Shown here piece after piece: positions 7,904 through 50,643 of a stretch of DNA of 64,000 nucleotides. A program made the translations under genes and the position numbers. Position 1 is the stretch's first letter. Each line of letters opens with the position of its first letter. The notes under the pieces were generated by a model. It saw nothing but the letters and a program-made list of their open reading frames with translations. It was not told the DNA's origin and did no database searches. Origin of the DNA: Erwinia tasmaniensis Et1/99 (lineage in GTDB: Bacteria > Pseudomonadota > Gammaproteobacteria > Enterobacterales > Enterobacteriaceae); the NCBI RefSeq assembly GCF_000026185.1, contig NC_010694.1, positions 3,100,001 through 3,164,000 of the forward strand, written 5' to 3'.

Positions 7904-9424
7904 TTATTTGCTGCCTGGACGCAGCGCCGGGAACAGGATCACGTCACGGATGGTATGGCTGTTGGTAAACAGCATCACCATGCGGTCGATACCGATGCCC
8001 AGGCCTGCGGTTGGCGGCAGGCCGTGCTCCAGCGCGGTGACGTAGTCTTCGTCGTAGAACATCGCTTCGTCATCCCCCGCGTCTTTCGCATTCACCTGCT
8101 GCAGGAAACGTTCCGCCTGGTCCTGAGCATCGTTCAGCTCCGAGAAGCCGTTGCCGATTTCGCGGCCGCCGATAAAGAACTCAAAGCGATCGGTGATTTC
8201 CGGGTCCATATCGTTACGACGCGCCAGCGGTGAGACCTCAGCCGGATATTCGGTAATAAAGGTAGGCTGGATCAGGTGAGCTTCCGCAGTTTCTTCGAAG
8301 ATCTCGGTTACCAGGCGGCCCAGCCCCCAGCTTTTCTCAACCTTAATCCCCAGAGACTGGGCGATGGCGACTGATTTATCGAAGTCCGCCAGATCGGCCA
8401 GATCGGTCTGTGGGCGATATTTCAGGATCGCTTCTTTCATCGTCAGCTTTTCAAAAGGCTTGCCGAAGTCAAACTGCTGGTCGCCGTAAGGCACCACGGT
8501 GCTGCCCAGCACGTCCTGCGCTAGCGTGCGGAACAGGCTTTCGGTCAGTTCGATCAGGTCTTTATAGTCGGCATACGCCATATAGAGTTCCATCATGGTG
8601 AACTCTGGGTTATGGCGTGGCGAAATACCTTCGTTACGGAAGTTGCGGTTGATTTCAAATACGCGATCGAAGCCCCCCACCACCAGACGCTTCAGGTACA
8701 GCTCCGGGGCAATACGCAGGTACATATCGAGATCCAGCGCATTGTGGTGAGTGATAAACGGTCGGGCAGACGCGCCGCCGGGGATCGCCTGCATCATCGG
8801 CGTTTCCACTTCCATAAAGTCGCGATCCACCATGAAACTGCGGATACCGGCCATGATTTGCGAGCGAATTTTGAACGTGTTGCGTGAATCGTCGTTAGCA
8901 ATCAGGTCAAGATAACGCTGACGGTAGCGGGTTTCCTGGTCGGCCAGGCCGTGGAACTTGTCCGGCAGCGGGCGCAGCGCTTTGGTCAGCAGGCGCAGTT
9001 CGCTACAGTGGATCGACAGCTCGCCGGTTTTGGTCTTGAACAACTTGCCGCGTGCGCCGAGGATATCGCCGAGATCCCACTTTTTGAACTGTTCGTTGTA
9101 GATACCTTCGGCTAAATCGTCACGGGAGACGTACAGCTGAATACGGCCGCCGACATCCTGCAAAGTAACAAAAGAGGCTTTGCCCATGATACGGCGCGTC
9201 ATCATGCGGCCCGCAACGCTGACTTCAATGCCCAGCGCTTCCAGCTCTTCGTTCTCTTTACCGTCAAATTCGGCGTGCAGCTGGTCAGATGTGCGATCGC
9301 GACGGAAGTCGTTCGGGAAGGCCAGGCCGGTTGCGCGCAGAGCCACCAGCTTTTCGCGCCGCGCTTTCAGTTCGTTGTTCAGCTCAAGTGCAGCATCCGG
9401 GGCCTGCGGTTGTTGTTCAGACAT
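7904..9424 (-). CDS. lysS: Lysyl-tRNA synthetase LysS (class II)
   Basis: Charges tRNA-Lys in the cytoplasm. The 506-residue protein has an N-terminal OB-fold anticodon domain (residues about 60-180) and a class II catalytic domain with [20 protein letters not shown] (motif 2) and [13 protein letters not shown] (motif 3). Length is that of E. coli LysS (505). AAGGAACT precedes the ATG. It lies 9 bp after prfB and is clearly co-transcribed with it. Confidence 0.98.
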
Positions 9425-9433
9425 GTGAGTTCC

Positions 9434-10532
9434 TTATAAACCTGCTTTCAAACTTGCTTCAATAAAACGATCCAGATCGCCGTCCAGAACCGCCTGAGTG
9501 TTACGCGTCTCTACGCTGGTGCGCAGGTCCTTGATGCGGGAGTCGTCCAGCACGTAAGAACGGATCTGGCTGCCCCAGCCGATGTCAGACTTGTTATCTT
9601 CCGCCGTCTGCTTATCCGCATTTTTCTTCTGCATCTCGTATTCGTACAGCTTGGCGCGCAGCTGTTTGAATGCCTGATCTTTGTTTTTATGCTGAGAGCG
9701 GTCGTTCTGACACTGCACCACAATGTTGGTCGGTAAGTGGGTAATACGCACCGCCGACTCGGTTTTGTTAACGTGCTGACCACCGGCACCGGAGGCGCGG
9801 TAGACGTCGATACGCAGGTCGGCCGGATTGATTTCGATATCAATATTGTCATCGACTTCCGGATAGATAAACACCGAGCTGAACGAGGTGTGGCGACGGC
9901 CGCCGGAATCGAACGGGCTTTTGCGCACCAGGCGATGCACGCCGGTTTCAGTACGCAACCAGCCGAACGCATAATCACCGATGATCTTGATGGTGGCGGA
10001 TTTAGTCCCGGCAACTTCCCCATCTGACTCTTCGATAATTTCGGTTTTAAAGCCTTTGGCCTCTGCCCAACGTAGATACATGCGCAGCAGCATGCTGGCC
10101 CAGTCCTGCGCTTCGGTGCCGCCGGAACCGGCCTGGATATCCATATAGCAGTCGGCGCTGTCATATTCGCCGGAAAACATACGGCGGAATTCCAGCTCGG
10201 CGAGCTTCTTGTCCAGCCCGTCAAGTTCGGCGACCGCCTCGTTGAAGGTCTCTTCGTCTTCGGCTTCCACCGCCAGCTCCAGCAGGCCGGAGACATCTTC
10301 CAGCCCTTGGGTCATCTGGTCGAGTGTGTCGACCACGGCTTCTAATGCGGAGCGTTCTTTACCCAGCGCCTGGGCGCGCTCGGGTTCATTCCAGACGTCA
10401 GGCTGTTCTAATTCAGCGTTAACTTCTTGCAGGCGTTCTTTCTTGGCATCATAGTCAAAGATACCCCCTGAGCACGGTGCTGCGCTCGGTGAGATCCTGA
10501 ATACGGTTTTTTACCGGATTAATTTCAAACAT
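9434..10532 (-). CDS. prfB: Peptide chain release factor 2 (RF2), programmed +1 frameshift
   Basis: RF2 reads UAA and UGA stops. Translation starts at ATG 10532, runs 25 codons, meets an in-frame TGA at 10455-10457, and must shift +1 to continue for 340 more residues, giving 365 as in E. coli. The downstream frame contains the SPF recognition tripeptide (KSPFDSGG) and the catalytic GGQ loop ([12 protein letters not shown]). A gene caller that ignores the shift reports only about 300 residues starting at MVDTLDQM. It is the first gene of prfB-lysS. Confidence 0.98.
10454..10469 (-). promoter_or_regulatory. RF2 autoregulatory +1 frameshift site
   Basis: On the minus strand the sequence reads AGGGGGTATCTTTGAC: an internal Shine-Dalgarno-like AGGGGG, then the slippery CTT and the UGA followed by C. 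This is the canonical element by which low RF2 lets the ribosome slip and complete RF2. Confidence 0.97.
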
Positions 10533-45351: not shown

Positions 45352-46104
45352 ATGACGAAACGTATCACTTGTATCGTGCTGGCGCTGTCTGGCTTACTTT
45401 CCGGCTGTCAAAATTTGGACAGCAATGCCCTGATGCAGTCTGGCAGCCAGGCTTGGCAGGCCGCGACCCTTAGCGATGCGCAGGTGAGAGAGCTGAGCGA
45501 CAAGTCCTGCCAGCAGATGGACGGCGAGGCTCAGATTGCCCCTGACAGCAACCCCTATGCACAACGCCTGAAAAAGATCGCCGCCGCGCTTGGGGATAAC
45601 ATCAACGGCACCCCGGCCGACTATAAAGTTTATCTGACTAAAGACGTCAACGCGTGGGCGATGGCGAACGGCTGCATCCGCGTATACAGCGGCCTGATGG
45701 ATTTGATGAACGATAACGAAGTCGAAGGCGTTCTGGGCCACGAAATGGGTCACGTGGCGCTGGGTCACTCGCGTAAAGCCATGCAGCTGGCCTGGGCTAC
45801 CACCGCGGCGCGCGGCGCTGCTGCCTCCGTCGGCGGGGCGGCGGCTTCACTCTCGCAGTCCCAGCTGGGCGATCTGGGAGAAAAGTTGGTCAACGCGCAA
45901 TTCTCCCAGAGCCAGGAATCTCAGGCTGATGATTACTCTTTCGACCTGATGAAAAAACGCAGCATCGATCCCCAAGGGCTGGTCACCAGCTTTGAGAAAC
46001 TGGCGAAGATGGAAGGCACCCACACCAGCAGCATGTTTGACTCGCACCCCGCCTCGCAGGCGCGTGCTGACCATATCAGACAGCGTATTGCCGCAGGTAA
46101 GTAA
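45352..46104 (+). CDS. loiP: Outer-membrane metalloprotease LoiP (YggG)
   Basis: A zinc protease induced at low osmolarity. The 250-residue lipoprotein has signal and lipobox LLSGC (Cys19), and the M48 active site HEMGHVALGH near residue 130, with a third ligand Glu in SQESQADDYSFDLM. A small GGGCGG/CCGCCC hairpin follows at 46116-46133. In E. coli the next gene region leads to speB; here an AT-rich insertion follows. Confidence 0.93.
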   Translation: MTKRITCIVLALSGLLSGCQNLDSNALMQSGSQAWQAATLSDAQVRELSDKSCQQMDGEAQIAPDSNPYAQRLKKIAAALGDNINGTPADYKVYLTKDVNAWAMANGCIRVYSGLMDLMNDNEVEGVLGHEMGHVALGHSRKAMQLAWATTAARGAAASVGGAAASLSQSQLGDLGEKLVNAQFSQSQESQADDYSFDLMKKRSIDPQGLVTSFEKLAKMEGTHTSSMFDSHPASQARADHIRQRIAAGK

Positions 46105-46210
46105 CATCGAACAGAGGGCGGGTAAAGCCGCCCCGTATGGCTGAAATTATGCCTTTCGTTATAGTCATTTAAAATGCTAAATGCGTTTTGAAAACTACTG
46201 GGTTCATACC

Positions 46211-46843
46211 CTAACCAAAAATTGAAAATATTGATTTAATAATAAAAACAACACCTATAAGTAAAAGTAAAGAGCCGGTAAAAAACTCAATCCTGTTGCG
46301 AATACTATCATCTTTGGCTAATTTATAGAGTTTCCCAATCAGGCTAACAAACGCGACCCACCAAACAACACCCACCAATATATCAATGATACCCAGAGTA
46401 ATCACCTGAGAGATGACATTACCTTTCTCGCTAACAAATTGGGGAAGTATACTAATAAAAAAAACAGCAACCTTTGGGTTTAGAATATTCGCAGTCATTC
46501 CACTGAGAAAAGCCCCCTTATTGAATCTTTGGGGAGGAGTGTCCTCAATACTCTTATCACGATTAGAATACAACTCTTTTAACGATGAAAAACCAAGCCA
46601 TGTAATATATATTCCACCAAGGAGTTGGATAATATAAAAGGCATCCTTCGAGGCGAGAAAGATAGCTGAGGCCCCGATGACCGCAAGGATCATATGAAAG
46701 AAGAGACCGCACTGAACGCCCAATGCTGAAAGCATTCCCTCTCTTTTACTTCTAAATGTATTCTTCGATATTATCAACCAATCAGGACCAGGTGTCACGT
46801 AAGACAGTAAAGCAACAAAAATATAAAGCAAATAAACGGACAT
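46211..46843 (-). CDS. LysE/RhtB-family amino-acid exporter in AT-rich cassette
   Basis: A 210-residue protein with six predicted helices and the family signature LLSYVTPGPDWLIISKNTF, plus ANILNPKVAVFFISILPQF. It is clearly richer in AT than the flanking core genes. The frame opens ten codons up, but ATG 46843 has GAGGG 7 bp ahead. It starts 14 bp after the stop of the 2-oxoglutarate oxygenase on the same strand, so they form an operon, and it is a good candidate to export the oxygenase product. Substrate unproven. Confidence 0.85.
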   Translation of the reverse strand: MSVYLLYIFVALLSYVTPGPDWLIISKNTFRSKREGMLSALGVQCGLFFHMILAVIGASAIFLASKDAFYIIQLLGGIYITWLGFSSLKELYSNRDKSIEDTPPQRFNKGAFLSGMTANILNPKVAVFFISILPQFVSEKGNVISQVITLGIIDILVGVVWWVAFVSLIGKLYKLAKDDSIRNRIEFFTGSLLLLIGVVFIIKSIFSIFG

Positions 46844-46857
46844 GCTCAACCCTCTAT

Positions 46858-47841
46858 TTAAAATTTCCTGCAAATCATTCTTGGATTACCTTCCGCAGTA
46901 ACAGATTCTAATTTCACCCTATCTTCTAAAACACATGCCCGGAGCAGCCAACGGTCAAAGCCATCATATCGAGGCGTAAAGCTGGTCCTTCCATGAATTG
47001 CTCTATTATTATCAATAATAAATAAATCACCAGACTCAAGAGAGACATAACATTTAGCGTGGTTAGCAGCTTTTGCCAATTTTTTTAAGACTTCGTTAGC
47101 TTCATTATCAATACCCTCCATAAGATCTAAATCATAACAAATATGGTCATGATTATTTATTTTAAAAACAGAAACTATACGTCCATTTCCTTTTTCACCA
47201 TGCTTACTCCCAAAAGAATAATCCACTCCCGTTTTAAATCTTTCTTCTGAAAGCACAGATATATCTCCATCACTTAAATAAGATTTAATCCTTCTTGTGC
47301 TGGATGTAAATGTCTTCGCTTTTTTATCATGATCGGGCCTGATACAAAGTAAAATTATATAATCTGGTTTCTCATGATGAAAAGCTATTTCCGTGTGAAA
47401 ATTAAGGAGAGACTTTGAGCTTTCTGATGAAAGATGGTATTCATGCTCTTTTGATGGGATTATATTTTGAAAAATAGCACCTTTTTTCTCCTGTTTATAT
47501 GAAACTAAATACCCTAACTGTTCACCCACCATGGAGATAATACGCTCTCGATAAAAATGGCAAGCATCAGGAATAGAAAAATTATCATTGGGCGTTAATA
47601 TATTGTCGGAAATAACATTAAAACCACGAATGAGAAGTACGCCATAGTCATTGCTATAGTTTCTGAAATCATATAAAGCTTCAATGATTTTACTGGGGAG
47701 TTGACAAGAGTATAGGTAGGACTCTTTAATAAATTTACAAGGTTGAGCATAAGGAGAATACGCAGATACTCCTAACAATTCATCAATGTAAATAGAGTTA
47801 AGATCTAAGAGGTGTTCGCCCGATATTTTGGATATGTCCAT
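46858..47841 (-). CDS. Fe(II)/2-oxoglutarate oxygenase, AsnO/VioC-like amino-acid hydroxylase
   Basis: A 327-residue soluble protein of the TauD/clavaminate-synthase superfamily. The iron triad is His149-x-Glu151 (LLNFHTEIAFHHEKPDY) and His283 (NNRAIHGR); Arg297, 14 residues after the last His, should bind 2-oxoglutarate, as in L-asparagine oxygenase AsnO and L-arginine hydroxylase VioC. Glu in place of Asp in the HxE motif is characteristic of that subgroup, which hydroxylates free amino acids. CYDLDLMEG (Asp237, Asp239) is near the substrate-contacting Asp region of VioC. Substrate could be Arg, Asn, Lys or another residue. AT-rich composition and lack of an E. coli counterpart here suggest horizontal acquisition. 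Partner exporter is downstream. Confidence 0.85.
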   Translation of the reverse strand: MDISKISGEHLLDLNSIYIDELLGVSAYSPYAQPCKFIKESYLYSCQLPSKIIEALYDFRNYSNDYGVLLIRGFNVISDNILTPNDNFSIPDACHFYRERIISMVGEQLGYLVSYKQEKKGAIFQNIIPSKEHEYHLSSESSKSLLNFHTEIAFHHEKPDYIILLCIRPDHDKKAKTFTSSTRRIKSYLSDGDISVLSEERFKTGVDYSFGSKHGEKGNGRIVSVFKINNHDHICYDLDLMEGIDNEANEVLKKLAKAANHAKCYVSLESGDLFIIDNNRAIHGRTSFTPRYDGFDRWLLRACVLEDRVKLESVTAEGNPRMICRKF

Positions 47842-48486
47842 ATAGCCACCTGCATCGTCAAGAGATTAGGGTATGTAAATATATAAAGACAGGTCAACCT
47901 GAACCCCTTTTACCACAGGCTTAACCCCCCTGTCGAGTGTTAAAGAAACAACAATTTACGCTATCCAAATCAACAGGCATACCCGGCGACACGGCTATAA
48001 ACAGGTTAAATGGGGCCGCAGTGCTAATAGAGAAAATAATACTAGAATATCTATTACGCCATAAGTGTTTGTACTATACAAAGTAATAACGGTTTTTGGG
48101 TGCCCCAATCATGGACGTAACGTCTGAGATTAGGTAAGCAAAAAACTTGCACGACTGAGATCTCCCGATGGCCATTTCCATCCAGCCTGTATTCCAGCTA
48201 ATCGCCAAGAGCCTTACCAGATAACAGCATTGCCGGGCAGAGAGTTATTGTTTTCCCCATATAGCCGATCTTACCCGGTAATAGTGGGCACTCGACGAAA
48301 TCAGTAAATGCTGAACATCGGATCCGCGTTAAGCCTGCCCTGTGTTTCATGCTATTGTCGATGATGTCGTTATCCGCGATACAAATCTCTGCTATATAAA
48401 TAAATGCTCTTTTATAAGGCGATATATAAAATCAGATCCGCATCACCGAACAGAGAGCAAATAAACGCATAAATTGCGCGTTCAGC
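47842..48486. other. 645-bp AT-rich non-coding stretch
   Basis: No gene recognised. The promoter of the oxygenase-exporter operon should be near 47850-47900. An 18-codon frame with start ATG at 48169 (MAISIQPVFQLIAKSLTR) has no Shine-Dalgarno and is not supported. Several AT-rich repeats such as TATATAAATAAATGC and GATATATAAAATC occur near 48390-48435. It may contain mobile-element debris, but I see no intact ends. Confidence 0.4.
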
Positions 48487-48756
48487 TTGCCATCAGGGAG
48501 AGAGGGTTATCAACAGCTGCAACATCATCCACGCTTTTTTGTCTTCTACTGTATCGGTATTTTTTTCGTCTGTTTATGCCGAAGAGACTTTTTCTGCGAT
48601 GAAAGCAGAGACGCCGATATCCATTCTAAGATAGAGAATTTCTTTCCTGCCAGACACAAATGGTCGATAAGTACTGGCAAAAATATTATCAATAGCGGCG
48701 ATAAAGGAACGTCTCCCGCTGACGCTAACCGGCTTCCTGAATACTGTTCTAAATAA
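48487..48756 (+). pseudogene. Possible decayed exported small protein
   Basis: Two reading frames together look like one broken gene: HAFLSSTVSVFFSSVYAEET (48530-48589) is shaped like a signal peptide with cleavage after VYA, and it stops at 48624-48632 in that frame; the adjacent frame continues ENFFPARHKWSISTGKNI to a stop at 48754. No ATG/GTG/TTG fits the first part well. I interpret it as a frameshifted secreted protein. It is upstream and on the same strand as the small membrane protein and C39 peptidase, so it could have been their substrate. Weakly supported. Confidence 0.3.
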
Positions 48757-48771
48757 TGCGAGGACATTGAT

Positions 48772-49092
48772 ATGTGGCTGGTTGCCAATTTACTTGTTGT
48801 TATAACGTGGTTTGGCATTTTTGCATTCAATAACGAAATAGAAACCCCCAATAAGATATTCCATATTATAAAGACGGTCTTTCTTGGATACGCGCTATTT
48901 TTTCACGGCTACGCAGAACCCTACTTCTTAATCATTTGTGCTTTTGTAATATTTGGTATAATCATAACCCACCTGAGAAACATCAATAAAATCATCGTAA
49001 AAGATTTCTCCACCCTGTATATGACCTATATCATGTTGCCATTCCCTTTGGAAATGCGCATCATTCTGTTATGGGCGGGTGTTATTGAGTGA
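48772..49092 (+). CDS. Small membrane protein of C39 cluster
   Basis: A 106-residue hydrophobic protein with three predicted helices (about residues 4-20, 32-62 and 84-103) and a lysine-containing loop. GAGGA lies 10 bp before the ATG. Its TGA stop overlaps the ATG of the C39 peptidase by one base (49092), so the two are translationally coupled. I do not recognise the family. AT-rich. Confidence 0.6.
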   Translation: MWLVANLLVVITWFGIFAFNNEIETPNKIFHIIKTVFLGYALFFHGYAEPYFLIICAFVIFGIIITHLRNINKIIVKDFSTLYMTYIMLPFPLEMRIILLWAGVIE

Positions 49093-49636
49093 TGATAAAG
49101 ACAAACATCCTCATATTACTACTATTAGTAAATACTATCCATCTGACTAATGCCTCATACCAGGAACAGAGGTTTCAGGGCATCGATAAACAACTGTTTG
49201 ATAGTACCTGTGGTATAGCTTCTGTTTCTAATATCCTCAAGAAAAGTTACTCAGTGTATAAAAATGAAGTGGACCTGCTCGCGTTGATAGAAATCAAGCC
49301 AGAGTATTCGTTTGTGGATTTATCACTAATAGCCAAAGAGTTCGGCATCCCAATATCAGGGGTAAAGATAATCATTCAACCGTTTAAAATAATCCACTCA
49401 CCCTGTTGCATATCAACCGCTTTGGCAGTGCTCATTTCGTCATATTAAAAGGTATTGATGACACATGGGTGCAAATCGATGACCCTGGGTGGGGAGGGCT
49501 AAATTATACCCGCGCACAATTTGAAAATTACTGGTTACATGAAGATGGCCTGGGGCGTGCGTTACTATTCTTAAAAGATGAGAAAATACTTATCAACAGC
49601 AATAGAATTCATTCTAAAAAAATTCTAACTCAATAA
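49092..49636 (+). pseudogene. C39-family cysteine peptidase, frameshifted
   Basis: The first frame gives a signal peptide (MIKTNILILLLLVNTIHLTN) and the C39 nucleophile block FDSTCGIASVSNILK (Cys40), then ends at 49448 with unrelated residues. The -1 frame, open from 49388, resumes family sequence HINRFGSAHFVILKGIDD with the catalytic His and DDPGWGG with the Asp, to the stop at 49636. The two halves form one complete peptidase if one base is restored near 49400-49406. Such stand-alone exported C39 peptidases resemble FapD of amyloid secretion systems and bacteriocin-processing domains. No slippery heptamer is present, so decay or a sequencing error is more likely than recoding. Confidence 0.7.
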
Positions 49637-49658
49637 CCAACGATCAGAAGATATTTTT

Positions 49659-49697
49659 CCGGATCAATGTCTGTCAGGCTGACAGACATTGATCCGG
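49659..49697. repeat. 18-bp perfect inverted repeat between C39 remnant and speB
   Basis: CCGGATCAATGTCTGTCA (49659-49676) and TGACAGACATTGATCCGG (49680-49697) form a perfect stem with a 3-nt loop. The T tract lies on the 5' side for the plus strand and appears as A on the minus, so it is not a normal intrinsic terminator. A second stem GGGCGGG/CCCGCCC follows at 49695-49712, between it and the speB stop. Confidence 0.9.
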
Positions 49698-49719
49698 GCG
49701 GGTCTCCCCGCCCTTACAC

Positions 49720-50643
49720 TTATTTGATCTTATTGGCAGCCTGGACGTGCAGCATATCCAATGCCAGGCTGGCAGCCGCCAGCGCGGTAATTTCAGACTG
49801 GTCGTAACCCGGAGCCACTTCTACCAGGTCCATCCCCACGATGTTCATGCCCTGCAGGCCACGGATCAGCTTGCTGGCTTTATCGCTGGTCAGGCCGCCG
49901 ATGACCGGCGTGCCGGTACCAGGCGCATGGGCCGGGTCGAGGCAATCAATATCAAAGGTCAGATAGACAGGCAGATCGCCGACGATCTGTTTTACCTGCG
50001 CCAGAATGTCGTCCACGCTACGATCGTTAACCTGCGCCGCATCCAGCACGTTAAAGCCCAGCGAAGGATCAAACTCGGTACGAATACCAATCTGCACCGA
50101 GTGTTCAGGAGAGATCAAACCTTCTTTCGGTGCCGTATAGAACATGGTGCCGTGATCGAAGGTGGGGCCGTTGGAATACGTATCCGTATGCGCGTCAAAA
50201 TGCACCAGCGCCATTTTACCGAACGTTTTCGCATGCGCGCGCAGCAGCGGCAGGCTGATATAGTGGTCGCCGCCAAAGGTGAGCATGCGCTTACCCTTCG
50301 CCAGCAGCTTTTCAGCATGAGCCTGCAACTTATCGCTGAAATCCTGCGCGTCACCAAAGGCATAAACCAGATCGCCACAGTCAATGACCTTCAGCTGCTG
50401 GCGCAGATCGAACTGCCACGGCCAGCGGCAGCCCTCCCAGGCCAGATTGGTGGAGATCTGCCGGATGGCACCGGGGCCAAGACGGCTGCCGGGGCGGCCA
50501 GAAGTGGCGGCATCAAAAGGCACGCCGGTGATCACCCACTCCGCATCGCTGTCATACGGCTGGAAGTTGAGCGGAAAACGCATAAAACCGAAGGCGTTGG
50601 AAACCAGAGAGTTGTCATACTCATGGTTTAAGGTGTTGTTCAT
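49720..50643 (-). CDS. speB: Agmatinase SpeB
   Basis: Hydrolyses agmatine to putrescine and urea. The 307-residue ureohydrolase has the manganese motifs [21 protein letters not shown] and [21 protein letters not shown] precedes the ATG. It acts directly after SpeA, encoded upstream on the same strand with a YidB-family gene between them. Confidence 0.98.

Follow-up and report, generated by a model that had tools for sequence, protein, structure and literature searches.

The Two-Gene Locus and Its Site of Insertion

The stretch of DNA analyzed here, referred to as the window, comprises 64 kb of the 3,883,467-base chromosome of Erwinia tasmaniensis Et1/99, a non-pathogenic epiphyte whose genome totals 4,067,864 bases in 6 contigs. 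At 46211-47841 there are two open reading frames on the minus strand, a dioxygenase gene first and an exporter gene second with a spacing of 14 bp (Table 1), just as an earlier, sequence-only reading of this DNA had described them. The Shine-Dalgarno-like AGAGGG lies 6 nt upstream of the exporter ATG, and an in-frame TTG at 46873, if taken as the exporter start, would overlap the dioxygenase stop. Promoter and terminator prediction was uninformative, with 10 promoter-like sites compared to 8.0 ± 2.4 in shuffled sequence.

Table 1. Features at the locus, in window coordinates.
Feature	Position	Strand	Description	Basis
loiP	45352-46104	+	flanks the low-GC insert	
Low-GC insert	46105-49719		lies between loiP and speB	
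LysE/RhtB-family exporter	46211-46843	-	210 aa from ATG	ORF, profile matches
Intergenic gap	46844-46857	-	14 bp, holds the Shine-Dalgarno-like AGAGGG of the exporter	
CSL-type Fe(II)/2OG dioxygenase	46858-47841	-	327 aa	ORF, profile matches, motifs, predicted fold
AT-rich remains	48772-49448		beside speB; 106-aa ORF without a family; truncated 119-aa C39-peptidase-like, FapD-like ORF	
Segment similar to another Erwinia locus	49354-49758		matches the G409 locus (L051) at 83%, not E. piriflorinigrans	
speB	49720-50643	-	flanks the low-GC insert	

The GC content drops to 35–41% in the loiP–speB interval, with 34.3% in the dioxygenase gene and 37.6% in the exporter gene, and GC3 is 26% and 36%, respectively, compared to 63–70% in tktA, loiP and speB. 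This composition, the presence of the pair or its remains in only 3 of 37 Erwinia genomes and its position as an insert between loiP and speB support the proposal, already made from the letters alone, that the pair was acquired horizontally. Intact copies that are 86% (dioxygenase) and 88% (exporter) identical occupy the same site in E. piriflorinigrans, and the dN/dS values between the two species are 0.18 and 0.11, next to 0.09 for loiP and 0.01 for speB. Both E. tasmaniensis genes evolve under purifying selection, and with these ratios and an intact same-site copy in a second species, the pair is more than two chance open reading frames.

Within the 37 Erwinia genomes, that of Et1/99 included, the pair is intact in two (Et1/99 and E. 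piriflorinigrans) and eroded in a third, G409, where the last 67 dioxygenase residues and an exporter gene carrying a stop are left. A close dioxygenase match is absent from the other 34, six of which hold only remote CSL paralogues of 23–31% identity. A search of genome contigs for related loci returned a single one, that of E. piriflorinigrans, and no near match to the pair was found in E. coli genomes. A family-wide sample of 392 genomes gave 23 dioxygenase matches at 1e-3, with identities of at least 48% only in Et1/99, one Xenorhabdus (G315) and one Photorhabdus (G361). On the Erwinia contig G392:C33 (L052), a remote CSL dioxygenase (31%) is found at about 8203-10400 with an ATP-grasp-like protein and an MFS transporter, an arrangement that resembles a dipeptide-antibiotic cluster.

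Within the genus, the loiP–speB junction (loci L053–L082) is a site of variable insertions that is empty in some species. The loiP gene is present in 33 of the 37 genomes, and speB lies at most 137 bp from it in 13 of the 30 congener loci that were read; other junctions hold, depending on the species, IpdC-like, monooxygenase-like, porin-like or chemoreceptor-like genes, as named from their sequences. In the AT-rich remains beside speB of E. tasmaniensis, the match to PF03412 scores 21.9 bits (cut-off 22). No gene of NRPS size occurs within the 64-kb window, in agreement with the earlier statement that none is nearby, and the six ORFs of at least 450 aa are presumably lysS, recJ, gcvP, tktA, speA and a sugar/MFS transporter. 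An NRPS-linked tailoring enzyme was rejected on this basis. A system for anti-phage defense was rejected because PADLOC gave a single sub-noise match and nothing else.

The Predicted Active Site and the Exporter Family

The dioxygenase matches TauD (PF02668) with 59.8 bits (cut-off 27), and beside this, only a sub-threshold match to the CsiD model was obtained. The best NCBIfam models all remain below their equivalog cut-offs, namely clavaminate synthase Cs1 (207 of 450 bits), GntD (169 of 345) and VioC (121 of 418.6). The best solved relatives by sequence are CAS1 (1e-43), CAS3, KDO1 and AsnO, and a predicted model of the enzyme (pLDDT 88, pTM 0.91) gave KDO1 as the top Foldseek match (TM 0.88), followed by AsnO and CAS1, and then by NapI, OrfP and VioC. 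The model has the jelly-roll fold of the CSL family, with TM scores of 0.85–0.89 to KDO1, AsnO and CAS, so that structure prediction bore out the amino-acid hydroxylase fold expected earlier. That expectation had been built on an HxE...H iron triad and an Arg 14 residues later, and these are H149, E151, H283 and R297, with the three iron ligands aligning to H144/E146/H279 of CAS1 and H178/E180/H314 of KDO1. In a 30-row alignment (A1) of the window protein and 29 of its 32 matches, H149 and E151 do not vary, and the conservation of H283 and R297 is 90% or higher. Every row of a 35-row alignment retains the iron triad; R297 is kept in 34 rows, E118 in 33, and both DXXD and D239 in 32, the nearest relative (P0001) having Glu in place of D239. 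In the corresponding 35-row tree, which excludes P0029 (truncated), P0031 and P0032 and for which fused proteins were trimmed to their last 345 residues, the Erwinia rows grouped with Xenorhabdus and Photorhabdus at 93/78, below the starred level, and at 97/87 once P0011 was included.

The active sites of CSL enzymes have been described by a numbered scheme, in which, according to the accessible part of PMC6224419, E or Q at P2 is the ligand of the amino group, and DXXD is an acidic pocket that marks basic substrates. Positions in the Erwinia enzyme were mapped onto this scheme from pairwise alignments to solved relatives, and the alignment recovers the assignments published for AsnO (E125, N146, D241) and KDO1 (T167, S236) in that part of PMC6224419. 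On this mapping, R297 is the P18 Arg (2OG), R301 the P19 Arg (substrate carboxylate) and E118 the P2 amino-group residue, while the DXXD sub-pocket (P12–P15) consists of D207, Y208, S209 and D237, with D239 as a second Asp, as in the CSL subgroup for basic amino acids. The DXXD positions are D234/E235/S236/D268 in KDO1 and P/P/S/D in AsnO; K119 (P3) is as in AsnO, and E118 as in both AsnO and KDO1. The earlier placement in an "AsnO/VioC group" holds for the amino end of the pocket, which is AsnO/KDO1-like, but was too narrow, as the Erwinia enzyme has the DXXD basic pocket and AsnO does not. Judging from the predicted pocket (E118, DXXD and the conserved residues), the substrate is most likely a free, basic amino acid of the Lys/Orn/Arg class. 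C3 is the commonest site of attack in the CSL family, and by analogy with AsnO, KDO1 and VioC, hydroxylation would probably occur there.

The second protein matches LysE (PF01810) over residues 15–203 of 210 with 101.4 bits (cut-off 25.6). It reaches none of the equivalog cut-offs (TIGR00949, RhtB, RhtC, LeuE, LysE, ArgO), and the best subfamily model is that of the homoserine/threonine exporter TIGR00949, at 126.8 bits with a cut-off of 183.95. Its identity is 46.7% to the cluster exporter of Xenorhabdus and 45.2% to that of Photorhabdus, compared to 33–34% for the two best other Erwinia LysE paralogues compared and at most 37% for the non-orthologous Erwinia exporters among the matches listed. 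With the dioxygenase 48–51% and the exporter 45–47% identical to the Xenorhabdus/Photorhabdus pair, the two appear to have diverged in step. The exporter adjoins the dioxygenase in 3 of 3 Erwinia genomes with any dioxygenase trace, and the linkage is kept in 7 of 7 Xenorhabdus/Photorhabdus carriers despite a swapped gene order. The idea that the exporter is always linked thus applies to the close relatives, but not to the remoter matches of 32–42% identity, where no transporter was seen in two of four.

An AlaX-Like Gene in Xenorhabdus and Photorhabdus

Among 30 Xenorhabdus genomes (around G315), six carry a close homologue of the dioxygenase, as does one of 12 Photorhabdus genomes (around G361). 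In all seven carriers, a gene for an AlaX-like protein, the LysE gene and the dioxygenase gene stand in this order on one strand, adjacent to thyA-lgt in Xenorhabdus and to glpD-glpR in Photorhabdus. The dioxygenase of these genera is 558–559 aa long and has an extra 230-aa N-terminal part that the Erwinia enzyme does not have; its predicted model is weaker (pLDDT 76), and the structure comparison covered residues 231–557. In G447, a transposase-like insert lies between the N-terminal and catalytic parts. This 230-aa domain (L043 3096-4775; P0003–P0013) is common to the Xenorhabdus, Photorhabdus and Acetobacter enzymes and is perhaps, from its sequence, a degenerate DUF4350-like domain, yet DUF4350 was dropped as its identity, the pointers to it being P0020 (22.0 vs. 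30.4 bits) and a motif seen by eye. The putative clavaminate synthase XNC1_2155 of X. nematophila was rejected as a candidate for the present gene, as the available portion of PMC5313471 places it in a PKS/NRPS cluster, and the homologue lies beside thyA. The remote CSL paralogues of these genera adjoin NRPS-size or other biosynthetic genes.

The AlaX-like protein scores far below the cut-offs of the NCBIfam models, with 37.6 bits for alaS and, for AlaX-M (NF040865, cut-off 300), 30.9 bits in Xenorhabdus and 24.7 in Photorhabdus, while PF07973 gives 24.0 bits at a cut-off of 24 in Xenorhabdus and 17.6 in Photorhabdus. It matches the solved AlaX 2e1b at 7e-6, and none of the 25 aligned rows departs from the zinc motifs HxxxH and CxxxH. 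By its motifs, the protein is of the AlaRS-type editing family, and by the curated test, it is not an AlaX-M. It showed no domain of the FthB type (INS superfamily) or of the CtdA type (B3/4), the Pfam and NCBIfam matches above noise being AlaRS/AlaX-type only. A search with the Xenorhabdus query, run without a positive control, found no AlaX-like gene in the 37 Erwinia genomes, though elsewhere this query did retrieve a relative of 33% identity; PF07973 in the E. tasmaniensis genome marks only an AlaRS-like ORF and a 642-aa ThrRS-like ORF.

An AlaX-like match is present in 21 of the 42 Xenorhabdus/Photorhabdus genomes, 7 with the dioxygenase and 14 without a whole one, and wherever the dioxygenase occurs among the 42, an AlaX-like gene occurs as well. 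Of the 14, 13 have the AlaX-like gene at the same place, 11 of them full-length, and these form a loss series: AlaX and LysE beside a broken dioxygenase (two genomes), AlaX with a 29–35 aa LysE stub (two), AlaX alone (eight) and a broken AlaX (one). In one of the stub genomes, G448, the first 30 or so AlaX residues are missing at the contig end, and there is one stop upstream. The 14th genome, G443, was left out of the 13 same-place loci, its AlaX-like gene being a 33% relative elsewhere, near aspS. Over 14 pairs with an orphan copy, the dN/dS of AlaX is 0.11–0.24, and the orphan copies are therefore not freely decaying. This persistence fits an immunity gene, and it fits a generally useful proofreading gene as well.

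A class-wide survey of 369 genomes gave four further dioxygenase matches at 1e-30, of 32–42% identity. In G754 (42%), a POT transporter, the dioxygenase, an amino-acid permease, an AlaX-like protein (31% identical to that of Xenorhabdus) and an EamA exporter are encoded on one strand by near-overlapping genes. In G472 (34%), a MatE transporter gene follows the dioxygenase gene after 3 bp, and in G555 (40%, with a contig end near) and G823 (32%), neither a transporter nor AlaX was seen beside the dioxygenase, leaving AlaX in one of the four. Remote CSL paralogues served as a control, and the same queries found AlaX or LysE at none of 31 such loci, most of which were read for 1.5 kb per side and six also to about 9 kb per side; MFS transporters occurred at two of these six, so other exporter families do occur there. 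On plasmid pY0017 of Sulfobacillus thermotolerans (L131, 4673-7868), an argininosuccinate-synthase-like gene, a CSL dioxygenase (32.5%) and a DMT transporter follow one another, with recombinase genes on the flanks.

AlaX-like genes were also met in other settings. There were seven matches on plasmids, of which the contexts of four were opened, with an NRPS-type cluster in one and none in three. The one is on plasmid p5 of Azospirillum argentinense (L141, 4893-5795), where an AlaX-like "metal-dependent hydrolase" is part of a cluster with an aminotransferase, an adenylation protein, a carrier protein, a diiron oxygenase and an NRPS. Nine of 398 phylum genomes have AlaX-like genes, and eight of these belong to a single genus of the same taxonomic order (L144–L152), in which the gene lies directly downstream of a der/engA-like gene in 8 of 8 matches. 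Given these lone copies and the one near aspS in G443, the AlaX-like family is not dedicated to antimetabolites.

Proposed Function and Comparison with Known Systems

The preferred reading, to which a probability of roughly 45% may be given, is that the pair is a two-gene operon, gained horizontally, through which a free amino acid is hydroxylated and released as an antimetabolite, with AlaX protecting the producer where it is present. The dioxygenase would hydroxylate a free L-amino acid in the cytosol, probably at C3, and the LysE/RhtB protein would export the product; a neighboring cell would then import it, an aminoacyl-tRNA synthetase would accept it, and it would be incorporated into protein. 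Only in Xenorhabdus, Photorhabdus and one more lineage would the AlaX-like protein strip tRNA of the false amino acid, its gene staying on as an orphan protector where the rest is lost. Erwinia, having no AlaX-like gene, would have to depend on export or on a synthetase that tolerates the product. The AlaRS-type editing site recognizes the beta-hydroxyl of serine, and for this reason a beta-hydroxylated amino acid would be a natural quarry for AlaX-like editing.

The antimetabolite role is made more likely by the AlaX-like neighbor in the relatives, that is, by its place in every one of the seven carriers and also in G754, by the loss series and by its absence from the 31 control loci, to which can be added the AlaX-like gene within the NRPS-type cluster of the Azospirillum plasmid and the precedents described in the available portions of PMC3684760, PMC10018355, PMC11295145 and PMC8498466. 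On the other side stand the 37 Erwinia genomes without AlaX, the erosion of the pair in G409 and its lack in 34 of the 37, the lone AlaX-like genes in other genera, the three of four plasmid contexts without a cluster, and the remoter dioxygenases, mostly without AlaX. The sub-cut-off, homoserine/threonine-like subfamily signal of the exporter also does not indicate a basic substrate. In addition, the AlaX proteins known so far act on Ser- and Gly-tRNAAla, as far as the accessible text of PMC11295145 goes. A basic amino acid is not normally charged to the tRNAs that they edit, and an AlaX protein that removed a hydroxylated one would have to have acquired a new specificity. A more far-reaching version is more doubtful. 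In it, a CSL dioxygenase that converts an ordinary free amino acid to a false one, an exporter of exchangeable family (LysE or EamA) and an AlaX immunity gene that outlives the weapon would form a portable two- to four-gene weapon module evolving like a toxin and its antidote, of which Erwinia carries the weapon only.

A serious rival, though on the whole an unlikely one, is that the operon protects its carrier against a toxic amino acid of a plant, insect, nematode or competitor, with the dioxygenase inactivating it, the exporter expelling it and AlaX clearing mischarged tRNA. The retention of AlaX as the last gene fits this equally well, but the enzyme is the first part lost in the loss series, hydroxylation by itself seldom destroys an amino acid, and the characterized CSL relatives (CAS, VioC, AsnO, OrfP, CmnC and GntD) are biosynthetic enzymes. 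Examples of such protection do exist, as the available portions of PMC10018355 and PMC8498466 describe the stand-alone tRNA editing protein CtdA beside canavanine-degradation genes and E. coli LysO and ArgO, which protect by exporting thialysine and canavanine.

It is less probable still that the association has some other cause, with AlaX carrying out general Ser/Gly-tRNAAla proofreading and surviving on its own merit, and the dioxygenase and exporter serving a separate metabolic purpose, for instance amino-acid overflow. The stand-alone genes beside der (8 of 8, in one genus) and near aspS, the purifying selection on orphan AlaX copies and the life of the Erwinia pair without AlaX would all suit this explanation, but AlaX adjoins in 7 of 7 carriers and once more in G754 with another exporter family, is found at 0 of 31 remote CSL loci, and is missing from 21 of 42 related genomes, which would be odd for general proofreading. 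Equally improbable is an exported hydroxy-amino acid that is a signal or nutrient-like molecule for a plant, insect or nematode host and not a poison, since a tRNA-editing neighbor has no obvious place in a signaling operon, even though the PimT amino-acid exporter secretes a quorum-sensing inducer in Streptomyces (available portion of PMC2698837) and the carriers are plant- or insect-associated, like those of the Hil operon, for which signal molecules have been floated (accessible part of PMC3684760).

If the antimetabolite reading is true, enterobacteria that live with flowers and insects would have a biosynthetic unit of very small size for amino-acid antimetabolites, one that cluster finders keyed to NRPS and PKS genes would probably overlook, and an AlaX-like gene with an amino-acid-modifying enzyme and an exporter would be a handle for finding others. 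Whether an AlaRS-type editing domain confers self-resistance to a hydroxylated amino acid would become a testable question. On the weapon-module version, editing of the AlaX type would provide resistance to a hydroxylated amino acid of natural origin.

Among solved structures, the closest fold is that of KDO1 (PDB 6f2a/6f2e), the free L-lysine 3-hydroxylase of Catenulispora, which has in common with the Erwinia enzyme the E at P2, the DXXD (DESD in KDO1, DYSD in Erwinia) and a second Asp two residues on, but is 27% identical and has Gly in place of Lys at P3. AsnO (PDB 2og5-2og7), a free L-asparagine 3-hydroxylase, also at TM 0.88, shares E and K at P2 and P3, but in it PPSD replaces DXXD and makes a pocket for a neutral side chain. 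AsnO feeds an NRPS.

For the AlaX-like protein, the closest parallel in logic is FthB, the fluorothreonyl-tRNA deacylase of Streptomyces cattleya, with which tRNA editing protects the producer of an antimetabolite; homology was rejected, as the accessible text of PMC11295145 relates FthB to ProXp-ST1 of the INS superfamily, in contrast to the AlaRS/AlaX type found here, and the logic alone is common. CtdA, a canavanyl-tRNAArg deacylase, is likewise a stand-alone editing protein, directed against a basic amino-acid analogue and encoded beside the relevant metabolism, but it is a B3/4-domain protein and is linked to canavanine use, not production, in the available part of PMC10018355. Searches of the open-licence literature found no report that joins a CSL dioxygenase to an exporter and an AlaX-type protein, and none of AlaX-type editing as resistance to a natural hydroxylated amino acid.

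The nearest published systems are the Hil operon of Pantoea ananatis, Rahnella and Xenorhabdus nematophila and the IDO operon of Bacillus thuringiensis, each with a hydroxylase of free isoleucine and an exporter, so the earlier claim that no system of this form had been described in enterobacteria does not stand, although both operons are made up of other families (available portion of PMC3684760). They resemble the Erwinia pair in the proposed hydroxylation of a free amino acid, in having the exporter within the operon and in their plant- and insect-associated carriers, and an antimicrobial role has been proposed for the product, according to the same portion of PMC3684760. They differ, as described there, in having PF13640 or PF10014 dioxygenases, an RhtA or MFS exporter and, in addition, a reductase and often a ligase, whereas the Erwinia pair has a PF02668 CSL enzyme, in which PF13640 and PF10014 had no match, a LysE exporter and no further enzyme, with AlaX in its relatives. 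The principle of a hydroxylase plus an exporter is therefore already in print, and the CSL dioxygenase with a LysE exporter, joined by AlaX in relatives, is a variant of it.
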